From the NCBI GenBank assembly GCA_031289675.1, contig JAITOZ010000158.1:1-36140 (forward strand): a stretch of DNA of 36,140 nt, given 5' to 3'. The position numbers were made by a program, and so were the translations under genes. Positions within the stretch are counted from its first letter, which is position 1. Each line of letters begins with the position of its first letter. This DNA comes from Planctomycetaceae bacterium. GTDB taxonomy: Bacteria; Planctomycetota; Planctomycetia; Pirellulales; Thermoguttaceae. The notes below the pieces were generated by a model that saw only the letters and a program-made list of their open reading frames with translations, did no database searches and had not been told where the DNA came from. Positions 1 to 9,596 of this stretch are shown here, in pieces.

Positions 1-10
1 GATACTCGCC

Positions 11-853
11 TTGATGTCGTCCTTAATACCGCCGTTATTTGCAAGTGCTTATAGAATGATATGCCCGCAAACCGCCGTAACCGGCGGAGACTTTGCCCTT
101 TTACAGCAGTTATTCAATATGCTGAAAATTCCGTTCTTCGCTGCTAACGAGGAGGAAAATATCCAAAAATACATATCGCTGCATAAATGTCCTTTTCTTA
201 CCCGAATCGGAACAGCAGTAAAGACAAAAGGGAAAAAGTCAACGCTGTGGGCCGATACAATCGGACTGCAGAACAGAGCGTTCGTCTACACATCGCTTAT
301 TTCCTCACTGGCGAGGATGTCCTACGGAAAAGCAAACCTTATTATTCTGCCGTGTCTGCGTTCATATCAATGGTTTGACGGTAAACTGCCGGACATCTTT
401 CTTACCTGCTTCGCTCACTGCCTAAAACATTTCAGCCGGTATGTCCTCGAACCGAAATTGTCGTCAGAAGACTGGAACACAGACACGCTTGCAGAAGCAG
501 TACGGTTTTTTGAAGAAGATATGGGACTGCCCGTAACAAAAAATGTCATTCGTGACGGGTATTATGACTCTTCCCCGTATTTCTGTGATTACGTCAATTT
601 ACTCAAGCAGTCGGAAATACTGCCGTTCGAGCAAGTCAACGGCGAATGCCGTATATCAGTAAACAATCTCGGCGAATGTTTTCGAAAGCACATCGGAATG
701 TTTGACTTTGAATATATCCATTCGAGTCTGCTGCAAAGCGAACTCTTAAAGGGTTATGACGCAAAGACGCATACGCTTATACTTGACAGCGAAGTTATGA
801 ATAAAAACGCAATGCGGCTGGAAAAACTTTACGGACCGAATATACGCCGTTAA
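11..853 (+). CDS. hypothetical protein (possibly 5'-truncated by the window edge)
   Basis: 280-aa ORF with mixed, protein-like composition; stop shared with the convergent gene; true start may lie outside the window. Confidence 0.6.
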   Translation: MMSSLIPPLFASAYRMICPQTAVTGGDFALLQQLFNMLKIPFFAANEEENIQKYISLHKCPFLTRIGTAVKTKGKKSTLWADTIGLQNRAFVYTSLISSLARMSYGKANLIILPCLRSYQWFDGKLPDIFLTCFAHCLKHFSRYVLEPKLSSEDWNTDTLAEAVRFFEEDMGLPVTKNVIRDGYYDSSPYFCDYVNLLKQSEILPFEQVNGECRISVNNLGECFRKHIGMFDFEYIHSSLLQSELLKGYDAKTHTLILDSEVMNKNAMRLEKLYGPNIRR

Positions 854-3021: not shown

Positions 3022-4047
3022 TCACCCTATTTCCGCAACAATTTTATGCAAGTCGGCAATAAATGACTGTATTTGACTCTCGTTGGCTTGAGTCCTTTTT
3101 CCATAAATTTCGTATTTCTTATTCCGTAAAGAAGACGGAGCGAGTCCCGTGTAATTCAATACGGGAGACAACGTATTACAGTCCTTCATATGATGTATCC
3201 GTTTCTGCTTATCTAACGTAGTAAACTTATCAGCATAGTTAGCCGACAACTCCTCGATGATTTTATCAATTTCCGCAACATGCGACCGGTAAGCAGCAGA
3301 AGCATCCCTATTAATTGTTCTCGCCTTATTCAATATAAACGAATGAATTTTCGGAGATATTCCGCCGATGTCTTGGATTTTTGTATAAAACGTATCGAAT
3401 ACATTGTCTTCCAGCACGCTGTCTCCGACTTTTACGCCAAAAACTAACCGCAGTATATTGTATATTCCGCGAATAGATGCAGAATCCGCTGTACAGGGGA
3501 CGATAAGCCTGTCCGACGCAATCAAGCCCAACTGCGTATAGTTCGCAAAACTCGGATTAGAGTCAATGAAAAATACCGGTGAGTCCTTGCGATCTTGCTC
3601 AAACACGGTTATCAAATCGGACAAAAAACTCCGGCTCTTCTCCCAAGCGTTACGTTCCGGTGCGGAAGCCAGGTAATCAATAATTGACGAACAAATATCC
3701 AAATCAACATCGCCCGGCAATAGATAAAGATTTTTGGGCATATTTTCGTTATAGTCACTCACTCTAACGAAATAACTAATTTCACTACCTATCTTTCCGA
3801 ATCGGCTGCGGTCATAGCGGCTTTTGATATAACTGGCGATAGTCCGTCCGTTGTCATAGCAGAGTGATAAATTATCCTCGCCTTTTCCGTTTCCGCCGAG
3901 GAGCATTTCAGAAACATTCGCCTGCGGACACATATCTACAGCGACTACGGCTTTATCGGGATTATTCACCGCATACTCAATGGAAAGGCAATAAGTCAAA
4001 AACGTCTTGCCGACACCGCCTTTATTGTTCCAGATACAATACCGCAT
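3022..4047 (-). CDS. ParA/MinD-family AAA-like ATPase
   Basis: N-terminal deviant Walker A WNNKGGVGKTFLTY, then VVAVDMCPQANVSEMLLGG typical of the ParA family. Confidence 0.9.
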   Translation of the reverse strand: MRYCIWNNKGGVGKTFLTYCLSIEYAVNNPDKAVVAVDMCPQANVSEMLLGGNGKGEDNLSLCYDNGRTIASYIKSRYDRSRFGKIGSEISYFVRVSDYNENMPKNLYLLPGDVDLDICSSIIDYLASAPERNAWEKSRSFLSDLITVFEQDRKDSPVFFIDSNPSFANYTQLGLIASDRLIVPCTADSASIRGIYNILRLVFGVKVGDSVLEDNVFDTFYTKIQDIGGISPKIHSFILNKARTINRDASAAYRSHVAEIDKIIEELSANYADKFTTLDKQKRIHHMKDCNTLSPVLNYTGLAPSSLRNKKYEIYGKRTQANESQIQSFIADLHKIVAEIG

Positions 4048-4140: not shown

Positions 4141-4890
4141 TTATTCCTCGTCAGTCGGACAGTTCCTGCTTGTTTTCTCCGGGCAATTTGAGACAACCTC
4201 GGTGCCGGTTATGACTTTATCTTCGTCAAACACGGCATTGCCGTACACCACGGCGTTCTCTATCAGTTGCGTTGTTCCGCCGACTTTCACGCAGCCGGAA
4301 ACATAAGCGTTGTCCGTAACAACAGCGTCGTCTTTTATAACAGCACTTCCCGTTATTCTTACTTGACCATCGACTCCGGCATTACCGCAAACACTTGCTG
4401 CTCCAAACACATTAGCCTTTCCCGAACAATTGCTCTGCTCGTACACATTCGCCGAACCGCAAACTCTTGCCGATTCGCTTATCACCGCATCGTCATACGC
4501 AGAAGCGTCGCCGTACACTCTCGCACTGTCCTTCACCGATGCCTGACCGTGAACAAAAGCATCGCCGCTGATTCTCGCATCCCCCTCAATAACAGCATCC
4601 TCATCAACGACGGCATTGCCGTAAACCGAAGCGTTCCCTTTAACAACAGCGTTCCCTTTGACAACCGCATTGCCGGAGACGTTGGCATCCTGCATCACGA
4701 CTGCCGAATCCGCAACCCAGCAATTCCCGCCTTGATTCAGGTTGGAATTCTTGCTTATCCAGCCGCCGCGGTCTTCGGCACTCACACTCAAACTGCCGTT
4801 TGTGAAGTCGATGAGAGCCTGAATTTGATAAACCGTTTCACCGCTGACCTCTTTGGCGGTATCCATTAAAATTGTATATTTTTCCGGCAT
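4141..4890 (-). CDS. hexapeptide-repeat (left-handed beta-helix) protein
   Basis: about 25-30 consecutive hexapeptides such as NAVVKG NASVYG NAVVDE DAVIEG DARISG. Confidence 0.85.
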   Translation of the reverse strand: MPEKYTILMDTAKEVSGETVYQIQALIDFTNGSLSVSAEDRGGWISKNSNLNQGGNCWVADSAVVMQDANVSGNAVVKGNAVVKGNASVYGNAVVDEDAVIEGDARISGDAFVHGQASVKDSARVYGDASAYDDAVISESARVCGSANVYEQSNCSGKANVFGAASVCGNAGVDGQVRITGSAVIKDDAVVTDNAYVSGCVKVGGTTQLIENAVVYGNAVFDEDKVITGTEVVSNCPEKTSRNCPTDEE

Positions 4891-4915: not shown

Positions 4916-5791
4916 TTATCTTACCGAATCCCGAATTCTTTCGCGTTTTGTTTGGCTTCGTTCTTTTATCCGCTGGTAAGAATTTGCCGGTACAGGAACC
5001 CATTCGATACCGGCTTTATCAAACCAAAAGCGGACGTGCGTCCCGACAATTTTATACTGATACTTGTCGCCCTCATTCTTTTTCCAGAGAAAATGGATGT
5101 TTAATTCCTTTGCCCTTTCCATATCCCTGTAAAGCAGAAACCGGGTGCGGGCATCAGCAGCCTTCCCTTTCAGCGTCTCGCTGTCAAAGCCGTCAAGACA
5201 ATACAGCACTCCGAACACAAGCCGCTTCGTGAGTATCGGACTCCAACCGGCGGAACTCGTCGGCATCACCGCCTTGATGCCTTCTTCGGCACGTCGAACA
5301 TTCGGGTTTTCCCAATCGACAAACCGGTCAATGTCATCCGCTCGCACGGGAAATCCTTGTTGCAGAATTCCGCCGCCGATTGTTACCCCAAAAGAATAAA
5401 CAACTTCTTTGAGAGTTTTTTCTTTTTCTTCTTCTCTTTCTTCTTCTTTATATTCTGCTGATTTTGTATCAGTTTGTACCATTTTGGAACAGTTCGTATC
5501 ACTTTGTACCTGTTTAGAACAGTTTGTACCATTTCGTAACAATGCGGAATCGGCAGTTTTATGTTCCGAAGCGGTACAAAGTGGTACAAAGTGATACACC
5601 GACCGCCTGACCCGAATGATGACTTTCAATTCGATGAGCAGCCTGATGTGTCTGGAAGCGGACATTTTAGAAATGCCTGCCGCATCGGCGGCTTCCTGAT
5701 TGGTGAAACAAACGATATTTCCGGCAGCCTCCCGGCAGCGGAATATCACGTAGTCCCGTACTTTCTCAAATCCGTTCGCAGCGTTGCCCAT
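4916..5791 (-). CDS. HTH replication-initiator-like protein (start probably at 5791, not 5899)
   Basis: HTH-like segment FTNQEAADAAGISKMSASRHIRLLIELKVI; internal iteron-like array; SD-like GGAGAAA before ATG at 5791; the longer ORF start would run through the 36-bp inverted repeat. Confidence 0.6.
   Translation of the reverse strand: MGNAANGFEKVRDYVIFRCREAAGNIVCFTNQEAADAAGISKMSASRHIRLLIELKVIIRVRRSVYHFVPLCTASEHKTADSALLRNGTNCSKQVQSDTNCSKMVQTDTKSAEYKEEEREEEKEKTLKEVVYSFGVTIGGGILQQGFPVRADDIDRFVDWENPNVRRAEEGIKAVMPTSSAGWSPILTKRLVFGVLYCLDGFDSETLKGKAADARTRFLLYRDMERAKELNIHFLWKKNEGDKYQYKIVGTHVRFWFDKAGIEWVPVPANSYQRIKERSQTKRERIRDSVR
5461..5540. repeat. iteron-like array, 8 x 10 bp (consensus about AGTTTGTACC)
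   Basis: attttgtatc agtttgtacc attttggaac agttcgtatc actttgtacc tgtttagaac agtttgtacc atttcgtaac in exact 10-bp phase. Confidence 0.75.
5571..5600. repeat. inverted-orientation cluster of the same iteron motif (GGTACAAAGT), 2-3 units
   Basis: gcggtacaaa gtggtacaaa gtgatacacc, 10-bp phase, opposite orientation to 5461..5540. Confidence 0.65.
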
Positions 5792-5850: not shown

Positions 5851-5886
5851 GGAAATTTCTTTCCGAAGTTTTGGAAAGAAATTTCC
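5851..5886. promoter_or_regulatory. 36-bp inverted repeat, copy 1 (GGAAATTTCTTTCC-N8-GGAAAGAAATTTCC)
   Basis: perfect 14-bp arms; in the divergent region between the rep-like gene and 5963..6403. Confidence 0.8.
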
Positions 5887-5962: not shown

Positions 5963-6403
5963 ATGACCGAACAATTAAAGGCTTTTTACGTCAAAATCGA
6001 AAGTACGAACACGGACAGGACAACCGGCATCACCAAGGTTTTGGGATGGGTTGACGAACCTTTGCCAGAGGTGCATACCAAACCGGTGAACGCAGACATT
6101 CCGGTTGAAATTCCGTCAATACTCGTACCGGGACTTTGGTTCAATCTCTTTCAGCAGAATATCCGCAAGGGTAACTGCCCGCCGCAGAAACTTCGTCCTC
6201 TCGTATTTCGTGTTCTGCTGCTTTTCGAGCGGAATCAAGGCGTTGCCGGATTAGACGATCTTGCTTACCAGATTTGGGGCGATGACATCCGTCCCGATGT
6301 TGTCCGCAAGACGGTAAAAGAGTCGGAAAACAGTTTACAGGAGTACGGCATCAACCGCTTTATTGAGTGGAACGTGAAGAAGGAACTGTTTGAATTCGGT
6401 TGA
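5963..6403 (+). CDS. hypothetical protein, possible winged-helix DNA-binding
   Basis: ATG at 5963 preceded by GGAGG; 146 aa; bracketed by two copies of the same inverted repeat; the DNA-binding assignment is weak. Confidence 0.6.
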   Translation: MTEQLKAFYVKIESTNTDRTTGITKVLGWVDEPLPEVHTKPVNADIPVEIPSILVPGLWFNLFQQNIRKGNCPPQKLRPLVFRVLLLFERNQGVAGLDDLAYQIWGDDIRPDVVRKTVKESENSLQEYGINRFIEWNVKKELFEFG

Positions 6404-6404
6404 C

Positions 6405-6440
6405 GGAAATTTCTTTCCAAAGTTTCGGAAAGAAATTTCC
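6405..6440. promoter_or_regulatory. 36-bp inverted repeat, copy 2
   Basis: TGAC-GGAAATTTCTTTCC-AAAGTTTC-GGAAAGAAATTTCC; same arms and TGAC prefix as copy 1. Confidence 0.8.
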
Positions 6441-6495: not shown

Positions 6496-6771
6496 ATGAA
6501 AATCAAATTACCGCCGCCCGCTCTGATACGGATGCCGCAGCACGCCGCCGTCAAGCGGGAAATGCTTGAACGTATCGGCGTAAACACAGCCGAAGCCGCC
6601 GAGATGCTCGGCACGTCCATCAACACAATAATCCTGCTGCGGAAACAAGGCAGGCTCGCTCACGCTCAAGTCGGCGGACGAATTATCTATTCCGTCGCCG
6701 GTCTGCGCAGGTTCGTTGATAACGAAAAAGAAAAGCCCGGCGGTTACGAAGACCAACCGGACCAGAGTTAA
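6496..6771 (+). CDS. excisionase-family (MerR-like) HTH DNA-binding protein
   Basis: VNTAEAAEMLGTSINTIILLRKQGRLAHAQVGGRIIYSVAGLRRFVD resembles excisionase-family HTH_17 proteins; directly upstream of the integrase. Confidence 0.75.
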   Translation: MKIKLPPPALIRMPQHAAVKREMLERIGVNTAEAAEMLGTSINTIILLRKQGRLAHAQVGGRIIYSVAGLRRFVDNEKEKPGGYEDQPDQS

Positions 6772-6918: not shown

Positions 6919-8106
6919 ATGGCAACCCTCATTATAAGAGAAAGTGAACACACTCCCGGTTACGAAATTCAGTGGTATGAAGACAAACGCCGCCGCACCA
7001 TTTATTTGGGCGGAAAGCGGTTCAGCCGTAAAACAGCCGAACGCCTGAAGGAGATTGTCGAAGCACTTCTGTTTTATCGGGATAACAGTATCACAATACC
7101 GGAGAAGCCGGTGCTGAACTGGCTGGAGTCGGCGAGTAAACCGATACTGGCAAAACTGCAAAGGTCAGGTCTGATTGACCTGCCGGAAGAACACACCTGC
7201 GGTGAAATGTGGGCGGCGTTCCTGAAACAAAAGACCGGCGTTAAAGAAACGACACGGACGGCATACAAAGATGCACAACACCGCTTCTTCGAGACATTCG
7301 CCGAATTCGAAACGCTTGATGTTTTGACGAAGGAACGGTTACTCGCTTGCAAAGAGAGTCTCCTGCAAAAGTATGCGAAGGCAACGGTGTCGGGAACGCT
7401 CAAAAAGACATCGTCAATGTTCGTCTGGGCTGTCGAAGAAGGCTGGCTTGATAAGAATCCGCTTGCCGGCATTCCGAAAGGTTCGCAGGTCAATCGGGAA
7501 CACGACCGGATTATCACAATGGAGGAATACCGGCTGTTGCTTGACGCGTGTCCAAGCCGTGAATGGCGGGTGATAATCGCCTTTGCCAGAATCGGCGGGA
7601 TACGGTGTCCGAGTGAACTGATACCGCTGCGATGGCCGGACATTGATTGGGAACATAATCGGGTTTGTATCGTCAGTCCGAAGACCGAACGATTCGAAGG
7701 CAAAGAGGGACGCGTGATACCGCTGTTTCCCGATTTGCGGATAGAACTGGAAGCGTTATTTCGGGAAAAACGTGATGATGGGTTCATCATACGCAAATAC
7801 CGAAATCCCTCTCAAAGCCTCGCCCCGTTTTTCCGCAAGATAGCGGTGACGGCGGGATTCGGAATGATAGCGCGTCCGTTTGATAATATGCGGATGAGCC
7901 GGTCGAACGAGATACTTCGGCAATTCGGTTCGGACTTGGAATCGGCGTGGATAGGACATTCGAGTAAGGTTCGCAAGGAGCATTACTTTAGGGTGAACGA
8001 TGATGATTTCGACAAAGCGGGCGAAGTTACTTTACCTGCGAAAATCCCTGCTGTATGCCAGTCGGACGGGATAAAATCCGCTTGTTTAGAAGAAAGACAA
8101 TCCTAA
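6919..8106 (+). CDS. tyrosine-type site-specific recombinase / integrase
   Basis: RIGGIRCPSELIPLRWPDID (box I Arg), NMRMSRSNEILRQFG and WIGHSSKVRKEHYFRV (H...Y) catalytic region. Confidence 0.9.
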   Translation: MATLIIRESEHTPGYEIQWYEDKRRRTIYLGGKRFSRKTAERLKEIVEALLFYRDNSITIPEKPVLNWLESASKPILAKLQRSGLIDLPEEHTCGEMWAAFLKQKTGVKETTRTAYKDAQHRFFETFAEFETLDVLTKERLLACKESLLQKYAKATVSGTLKKTSSMFVWAVEEGWLDKNPLAGIPKGSQVNREHDRIITMEEYRLLLDACPSREWRVIIAFARIGGIRCPSELIPLRWPDIDWEHNRVCIVSPKTERFEGKEGRVIPLFPDLRIELEALFREKRDDGFIIRKYRNPSQSLAPFFRKIAVTAGFGMIARPFDNMRMSRSNEILRQFGSDLESAWIGHSSKVRKEHYFRVNDDDFDKAGEVTLPAKIPAVCQSDGIKSACLEERQS

Positions 8107-8564: not shown

Positions 8565-9596
8565 ATGAGAGAAGCCATTATCAAACCGTCTGACGACGAT
8601 ACCGTTCAAGTTGCCGAACCGGTCTTTAACGTACTGTCGTTAGAAGAAGACCAGAAATTACGTCCGCAGCGTATGTCCGAAATGATAGGACAGCGTGAGG
8701 TGTTTGCTCGTCTGCAAATATCAATTCAAGCCGCCCAAAAACGCAAAGAACCGCTCGGACATATTCTTTTTGACGGACCGCCCGGTCTCGGCAAAACGAC
8801 GTTTGCTATGTGTATTCCCCGCGAACTCGGTGTGGCTGTGCAAATCGGCAACGGAGCAACCCTAAAATCACCGAAAGATGTTGTTCCGTACCTGACCAAT
8901 GCCGAAGAAGGCTCCGTGCTGTTCATTGACGAAATTCACCGAATGCAAAAGTCTGTCGAGGAGTTTTTGTATCCGGCGATGGAAGACTTCCGCATTGACT
9001 TAACACTCGGCGAAGGTGTCAATGCCCGAACGCTGAATATCCAACTGAAACCATTCACTCTTATCGGAGCAACGACCCGCACCGGTTTGATTTCGGCACC
9101 GCTTCGCGACCGGTTTCAAATGCGTGAACATCTGGACTTTTATACTGTTGAGGAATTGGCAGCGATTGTCCGGCGGAATGCAGCAAAACTGAATATCCAA
9201 ATTGAAGATTCGGCGGCGGAGGAAATGGCGTTCCGCAGCCGCGGGACACCGCGATTGGCAAACAACCGGCTGCGTTGGGTTCGGGACTTTGCGGATGCAA
9301 AAGCGGACGGAGTGATTTTGCTCTCAACGGCGAAGGCGGCGTTAGCGATGCAGGCGATTGACCGGCTCGGACTCGATTCGCAAGACCGCCGGTTTTTAGA
9401 GACAATACAGCGTGTTTTCGGCGGCGGTCCGGTCGGAGTTGAGTCGGTTGCTCATACGATGAATGTCGCGGCGGATACGTTAACAGACGAAGTCGAACCG
9501 TTTATGCTCCGCAGCGAACTGCTGGTACGCACTCCAAAAGGACGGGTTTTAACGGAAAAGGGATACCAGCACCTTGCAATGGAGCATTGGATATAA
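8565..9596 (+). CDS. ruvB: Holliday junction branch migration DNA helicase RuvB
   Basis: LRPQRMSEMIGQ, GPPGLGKTT, LFIDEIHRM, IGATTRTGLISAPLRDRF, GGGPVGVES, RTPKGRVLTEKGYQHL. Confidence 0.95.
   Translation: MREAIIKPSDDDTVQVAEPVFNVLSLEEDQKLRPQRMSEMIGQREVFARLQISIQAAQKRKEPLGHILFDGPPGLGKTTFAMCIPRELGVAVQIGNGATLKSPKDVVPYLTNAEEGSVLFIDEIHRMQKSVEEFLYPAMEDFRIDLTLGEGVNARTLNIQLKPFTLIGATTRTGLISAPLRDRFQMREHLDFYTVEELAAIVRRNAAKLNIQIEDSAAEEMAFRSRGTPRLANNRLRWVRDFADAKADGVILLSTAKAALAMQAIDRLGLDSQDRRFLETIQRVFGGGPVGVESVAHTMNVAADTLTDEVEPFMLRSELLVRTPKGRVLTEKGYQHLAMEHWI

Follow-up and report, generated by a model that had tools for sequence, protein, structure and literature searches.

A candidate replication origin of helically phased 10-bp iterons inside an initiator-like gene of a Planctomycetaceae prophage-like element

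Geometry and coding-independence of the repeat array

Phage origins are rarely recognised from sequence, and the gene encoding a 291-aa initiator-like protein (4919–5791, minus strand; positions are those of the window, the whole 36,140-nt stretch of DNA that was analysed) raises the question of whether such an origin is carried within its coding sequence, in the form of an array of very short repeats. The direct arm of this array (5461–5540, plus strand) consists of eight 10-bp iterons in exact register, with a core of TGTACCA / TGGAACA and the consensus AGTTTGTACC. From 5461 the units read, in order, ATTTTGTATC, AGTTTGTACC, ATTTTGGAAC, AGTTCGTATC, ACTTTGTACC, TGTTTAGAAC, AGTTTGTACC and ATTTCGTAAC; a ninth, decayed unit (AATGCGGAAT) follows the eighth and reaches 5550. 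Autocorrelation over 5461–5541 was 66%, 70% and 76% at lags of 10, 20 and 30, respectively, compared with approximately 20–30% at other lags, and this interval was the top window for a 10-bp period anywhere in the 36 kb. The direct-arm units cycle through A (TGTATCA), B (TGTACCA) and C (TGGAACA) in that order, and it is this higher-order cycle that accounts for the agreement at lag 30.

A spacer without a good unit (5541–5561) separates the direct arm from an inverted arm of three to four units (5562–5598, minus strand; TGTATCA, TGTACCA, TGTACCg and CGGAACA), also in 10-bp register. Read on the minus strand from 5598 to 5562, these units are TGTATCAC, TTTGTACCAC, TTTGTACCGC and TTCGGAACAT, an A-B-B-C arrangement that repeats the A-B-C order of the direct arm but for an additional B. 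The segments 5465–5501 and 5562–5598 pair at 29 of 37 positions, and no other two inverted 37-nt segments of the window, at loop lengths up to 100 nt, match as well. A first-pass annotation of this DNA had described eight 10-bp units in exact register with inverted units beyond them, and both observations were borne out.

The same annotation had argued that a period that is not a multiple of three speaks against a peptide repeat. This argument was flawed, as 30 bp corresponds to 10 codons and the distal half of the array encodes the 10-aa peptide repeat TNCSKQVQSD / TNCSKMVQTD. The array was instead compared with 2000 synonymous recodings of the same peptide, using codons drawn from the large ORFs of the window. 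The direct-periodicity score was 202 (recoded mean 145, sd 9) and the inverted-arm pairing was 29 (recoded mean 20.5, sd 1.5, maximum 26), with neither value reached by any of the 2000 recodings. The peptide encoded by the inverted arm, YHFVPLCTASEH, is non-repetitive, lies near the predicted wing and is unrelated to the linker peptide, and it is for this reason that DNA, not peptide, is what the two arms have in common. Selection therefore acts on the DNA of the array, or else this DNA was copied as such in both orientations.

The array-bearing gene, its element and the lambda O layout

The 291-aa protein can be divided into a predicted winged helix (residues ~4–68), the iteron-encoded linker (~64–110), an E/K-rich stretch (~110–128) and a C-terminal domain. 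An HTH N-terminus had been proposed in the first pass, along with structure prediction. What stood of this was a set of weak HTH matches under the Pfam cut-off (e.g. AbiEi_4, E 0.00018) and a helix-helix-helix-strand-strand order at residues 4–68 of a single-sequence AlphaFold model (pLDDT ~50–70 in that region), the model as a whole having a pLDDT of only 43; a shorter construct gave a pLDDT of 39 and no confident fold. On these predictions an N-terminal winged helix is probable. The best annotated PHROG matches were the replication initiation families phrog_270, phrog_345 and phrog_678, all of them weak (E 0.0016–0.008, residues 16–125), and neither a Pfam nor an NCBIfam replication family matched at cut-off. 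The PF19808 (DUF6291) domain, which is discussed below, gave no match in this protein. Searches of viral contigs, 198 genomes, phage records, 84,980 species genomes and the PDB found no homologue; the lone match, in genome G062, was a short HTH match within an unrelated gene and was rejected.

Judged by its genes, the left part of the window is a prophage or prophage-like element that is cut by the contig end. It encodes a tyrosine integrase (6919–8106, plus strand; phrog_1, E 1.2e-28), past which lies the host ruvB at 8565, and an excisionase-like HTH_17 protein (6496–6771, plus strand; domain and PHROG searches). A ParA-like partition ATPase (3022–4047, minus strand; phrog_164, E 1.7e-36; AAA_31) is encoded in the same direction as the 291-aa gene. 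Directly downstream of the latter is a gene for a beta-solenoid, bactofilin-like protein (4141–4890; phrog_5070) with 18-bp DNA repeats. At the left end is the C-terminal part of a primase-related protein (2–850, plus strand), truncated by the contig end, which shares 35% identity (E 4.2e-43) with a protein of contig G000:C153; its primase label derives from the weak CHC2 zinc finger / DnaG primase matches of that relative (E 0.005–0.01). G000:C153 (L125) is a second phage contig from the same genome, encoding a terminase, an SDH-type protease and this primase-like protein, and a second small gene is common to the element and C153 (BLASTP E 4e-9). ParA homologues in genomes G062 and G116 had no element in common with the window. 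No D5_N (PF08706) gene was present among the scanned ORFs of the visible 8 kb of the truncated element, and further origin candidates may lie beyond the contig end.

The divergent promoter region upstream of the 291-aa gene contains a 36-bp palindrome, GGAAATTTCTTTCCGAAGTTTTGGAAAGAAATTTCC (5851–5886), a candidate operator. A second copy is found at 6405–6440, within a 40-nt repeat that is 95% identical, and these are the only two copies in the window. They flank the divergently oriented gene of a 145-aa protein (5966–6403, plus strand), which had no family match and no relatives in 197 related genomes. The two palindromes may serve as paired operators for a phage regulator, and the 145-aa protein is possibly an autoregulator.

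The 50-bp window of minimum GC content in the 291-aa gene (5416–5465, minus strand; gene nt 327–376; 24% GC) begins at the end of the array, directly 3' in the direction of the gene, the direct array occupying gene nt 251–331. It has A at 35 of 50 positions on the coding strand, includes a 34-nt purine run, and is a candidate unwinding element. As a positive control for this layout we used lambda O (NC_001416), where the annotated iterons occupy gene nt 349–433 and the minimum-GC 50-bp window, again of 24% GC and with an A-rich coding strand, occupies 438–487. The two genes are also similar in length (900 nt for lambda O, 873 nt here) and GC content (0.48 and 0.47). In lambda the duplex opens at the A-rich tract, the origin sits in the middle of the initiator gene, and the number of iterons is variable, the price being extra residues in the linker (PMC7466680). 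The 291-aa gene has the same succession of a DNA-binding domain (here predicted), iterons within its own coding sequence in the linker, an adjoining A-rich tract and a C-terminal domain. By BLASTP the 291-aa protein showed no similarity to lambda O (E 0.43), and no P-like helicase loader gene was recognised directly downstream, the next gene being the bactofilin-like one. The earlier proposal of an in-gene origin like that of lambda O is supported by the layout, the A-rich tract and the prophage context; homology to O is absent by BLASTP, and the PHROG matches are weak. We therefore describe the gene as lambda-like in layout; its membership of the O family is unsupported by these comparisons.

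Short phased iterons in other phages

Viral contigs were searched for arrays of similar units; the query, modelled on the motif of the window itself, required three TGGWACA copies spaced 10 bp apart, and its reversed form served as the single control. This gave 75 viral loci for TGGWACA and 14 for the reversed pattern. At least two opposite-orientation units within 350 bp were present at 56 of the 75 loci and at none of the 14 controls. As many of the 75 loci are near relatives of one another, only one control was used and the query was derived from the window, we take the TGGWACA motif to be real in phages and maybe not unique of its kind. The idea that most of these loci are peptide repeats was dropped once the inverted units had been counted. 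In 47 distinct arrays, same-orientation neighbours were spaced at 8, 9, 10 and 11 bp in 31, 51, 116 and 16 cases, respectively, the excess at 10 bp being partly driven by the query, and opposite-orientation neighbours showed spacing peaks at 11 and 22–24 bp. A strict four-unit pattern had no match in 297 related genomes, and the window's own degenerate array fails this pattern too; BLAST comparisons of the array, or of consensus repeats, with phage sequences returned nothing useful.

Many of the arrays are intergenic, with 8-bp pairs and 10-bp triplets flanking an AT-rich stretch (L005, L010, L063 and L072). Intergenic arrays with opposed arms were seen at 4300–4660 of L005, 4887–5175 of L010, 4580–5020 of L063, 3415–3802 of L072 and in other contigs, often near terminase genes. 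A PHROG search of the genes adjoining intergenic arrays identified no family. These intergenic TGGWACA arrays of environmental phages are likely to be undescribed origins. A D5/P4 primase was considered as the usual partner of TGGWACA arrays and was rejected, as D5_N turned up in just one of 50 records (many of these fragments). In a separate case (L004, 2320–2450), opposed TGTACCA (11-bp spacing) and TGGTACA (10-bp spacing) repeats lie in non-coding DNA just past an integrase gene, and these might mark an origin or, alternatively, integrase arm sites.

Arrays located inside genes were found mostly in genes for DUF6291 (PF19808) proteins, one of which has a DnaB_2 domain (PF07261). In these genes (L056, L133, L144, L145, L160, L162, L164 and L166, together with L190) phased iterons are followed by the lowest-GC stretch. 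The iterons of the DUF6291 genes are TGGAACA units with 9/10-bp phasing, both orientations occur within the genes of L144, L160, L162, L164 and L166, and eight genes have their lowest-GC window either where the iterons end or no more than ~80 nt further on. A more distant DUF6291-like gene, from phage vB_RanS_PJN03 (L190), has AAACCC units at spacings of 10, 9, 20, 10, 9, 20 and 10 bp and then a window of 14% GC; it adjoins a gene annotated as a bifunctional primase/helicase. With AAACCC in vB_RanS_PJN03 and TGGAACA elsewhere, the unit varies by lineage whilst the layout is constant. The array was absent from four near-identical DUF6291 homologues (L203, L204, L206 and L207) and is therefore not universal among DUF6291 genes. 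The array-bearing DUF6291 genes are probably replication initiators with internal origins. They resemble the 291-aa gene in their short, phased in-gene iterons, in several cases in two orientations, in the lowest-GC stretch that follows and in a TGGAACA unit close to those of the window; they differ from it in an N-terminal domain unlike that of the 291-aa protein and in that some members lack an array.

The origin reading, its rivals and known systems

Taken together, the array is probably where the initiator binds within a prophage replication origin that is itself located inside the initiator's gene, as in lambda, with unusually short iterons. This reading is the best supported because of the winged-helix-like N-terminus, the iterons in the linker and the A-rich minimum at the end of the array. 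It is also backed by the prophage context (integrase, ParA and partial primase-like gene), and by the same design being shared by unrelated DUF6291 initiator-like genes and by vB_RanS_PJN03. As no orthologue was found in the searches described above and the PHROG matches are weak, the support is partial. We propose that the N-terminal winged helix of the 291-aa protein would bind the 7–10-bp units with one subunit per helical turn, stacked on one face of the DNA. The direct and inverted arms, ~20–30 bp apart, would then become filled and bent together, and the resulting strain would open the A-rich tract that directly borders the direct arm. Finally, the C-terminal domain would bring in phage or host helicase/primase machinery. 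The identity of the binding protein, the melting, the recruitment of a helicase and replication itself are what we infer from this layout.

The main rival is a centromere, in which the iterons would be a parS-like site of the nearby ParA and the winged-helix protein its TubR-like centromere-binding partner. Winged-helix/ParA centromeres typically have short phased repeats in two arms, and TubR and other winged-helix adaptors bind centromeres in some plasmids and phages. The ParA-like ATPase gene lies within the element, two genes downstream of the 291-aa gene and co-oriented with it, and domain and PHROG searches recognised no ParB. However, the array and the ParA gene are not adjacent, the adjoining A-rich tract and the succession of wHTH, linker and large C-terminal domain fit lambda O better, and the DUF6291 parallels are linked to replication, so that we consider a centromere unlikely.

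We give still less credence to the array being bound by another protein of the element, either a primase-like C-terminal domain, as in P4 alpha, or the excisionase. A primase-like gene is present in the element and one array-bearing viral contig (L005) has a D5/P4-type primase, but D5_N was as rare across the records as described above, and the array lies inside the wHTH gene, ~1.3 kb from the integrase. Slightly less probable again is an autoregulatory operator, with the array merely repressing or timing the transcription of its own operon. Many initiators autoregulate, and a filament bound 190–330 bp into the gene could block transcription; against this, the promoter region has its own candidate operator, whose sequence differs from the array (the palindrome at 5851–5886), and approximately eleven units in two arms beside an A-rich tract exceed what an operator needs. 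A tandem peptide repeat without any DNA role has next to nothing left to recommend it, for although the distal half of the array doubles as a 10-aa repeat, the inverted arm encodes a different peptide and both repeat measures lie above all of the synonymous recodings.

Returning to the origin reading, the arrays may belong to a widespread and undescribed class of phage replicators, having helically phased iterons with a 7-bp core in opposed arms that enclose or adjoin an AT-rich tract, either intergenic or inside unrelated initiator families, with a TGGWACA-type unit across many phage lineages and the window's array as the member within a winged-helix gene. We offer this broader proposal tentatively and regard it as somewhat doubtful. 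In an incomplete literature search we found no paper combining these 7-mer units with phage iterons and none mentioning DUF6291. A signature of phased short iterons in two arms within an initiator gene, followed by an A-rich minimum, would allow origins and initiators to be called in prophages that have no homologues. DUF6291, labelled a 'family of unknown function', would gain a testable role as a family of origin-carrying initiators. It also becomes testable how a coding sequence keeps an array whose 10-bp period clashes with its codons.

Among known systems, the alpha protein of phage P4, itself the primase-helicase, binds decamer iterons (ori1 and crr) that lie outside its gene. The window's array resembles these in its short, ~10-bp iterons and differs in lying within a gene, and no D5_N was seen in the truncated element. 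TubR/tubC and ParA-linked sites with phased repeats are usually outside coding sequence and are not known to have an adjoining A-rich tract; a winged helix (predicted here) with short phased repeats is common to both, as is a ParA gene near the array in the window. The iterons of lambda and lambdoid phages are 18–19 bp long, each an imperfect inverted repeat, spaced ~20–24 bp apart and numbering from 4 (lambda) to 6 (Stx phages). Unlike these, the window's units are 7–10 bp, approximately half as long, one helical turn apart and set in two opposed arms. SaPI Rep and SCCmec Cch2 use very short iterons read by an element-encoded initiator, as is putatively the case here, but there an AAA+ helicase acts as the initiator, with the iterons placed downstream of the gene (PMC7581432). 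Origins within initiator genes have long been known from lambda; as far as we have checked, a version with two arms of one-helical-turn iterons, in an orphan initiator gene, is new.
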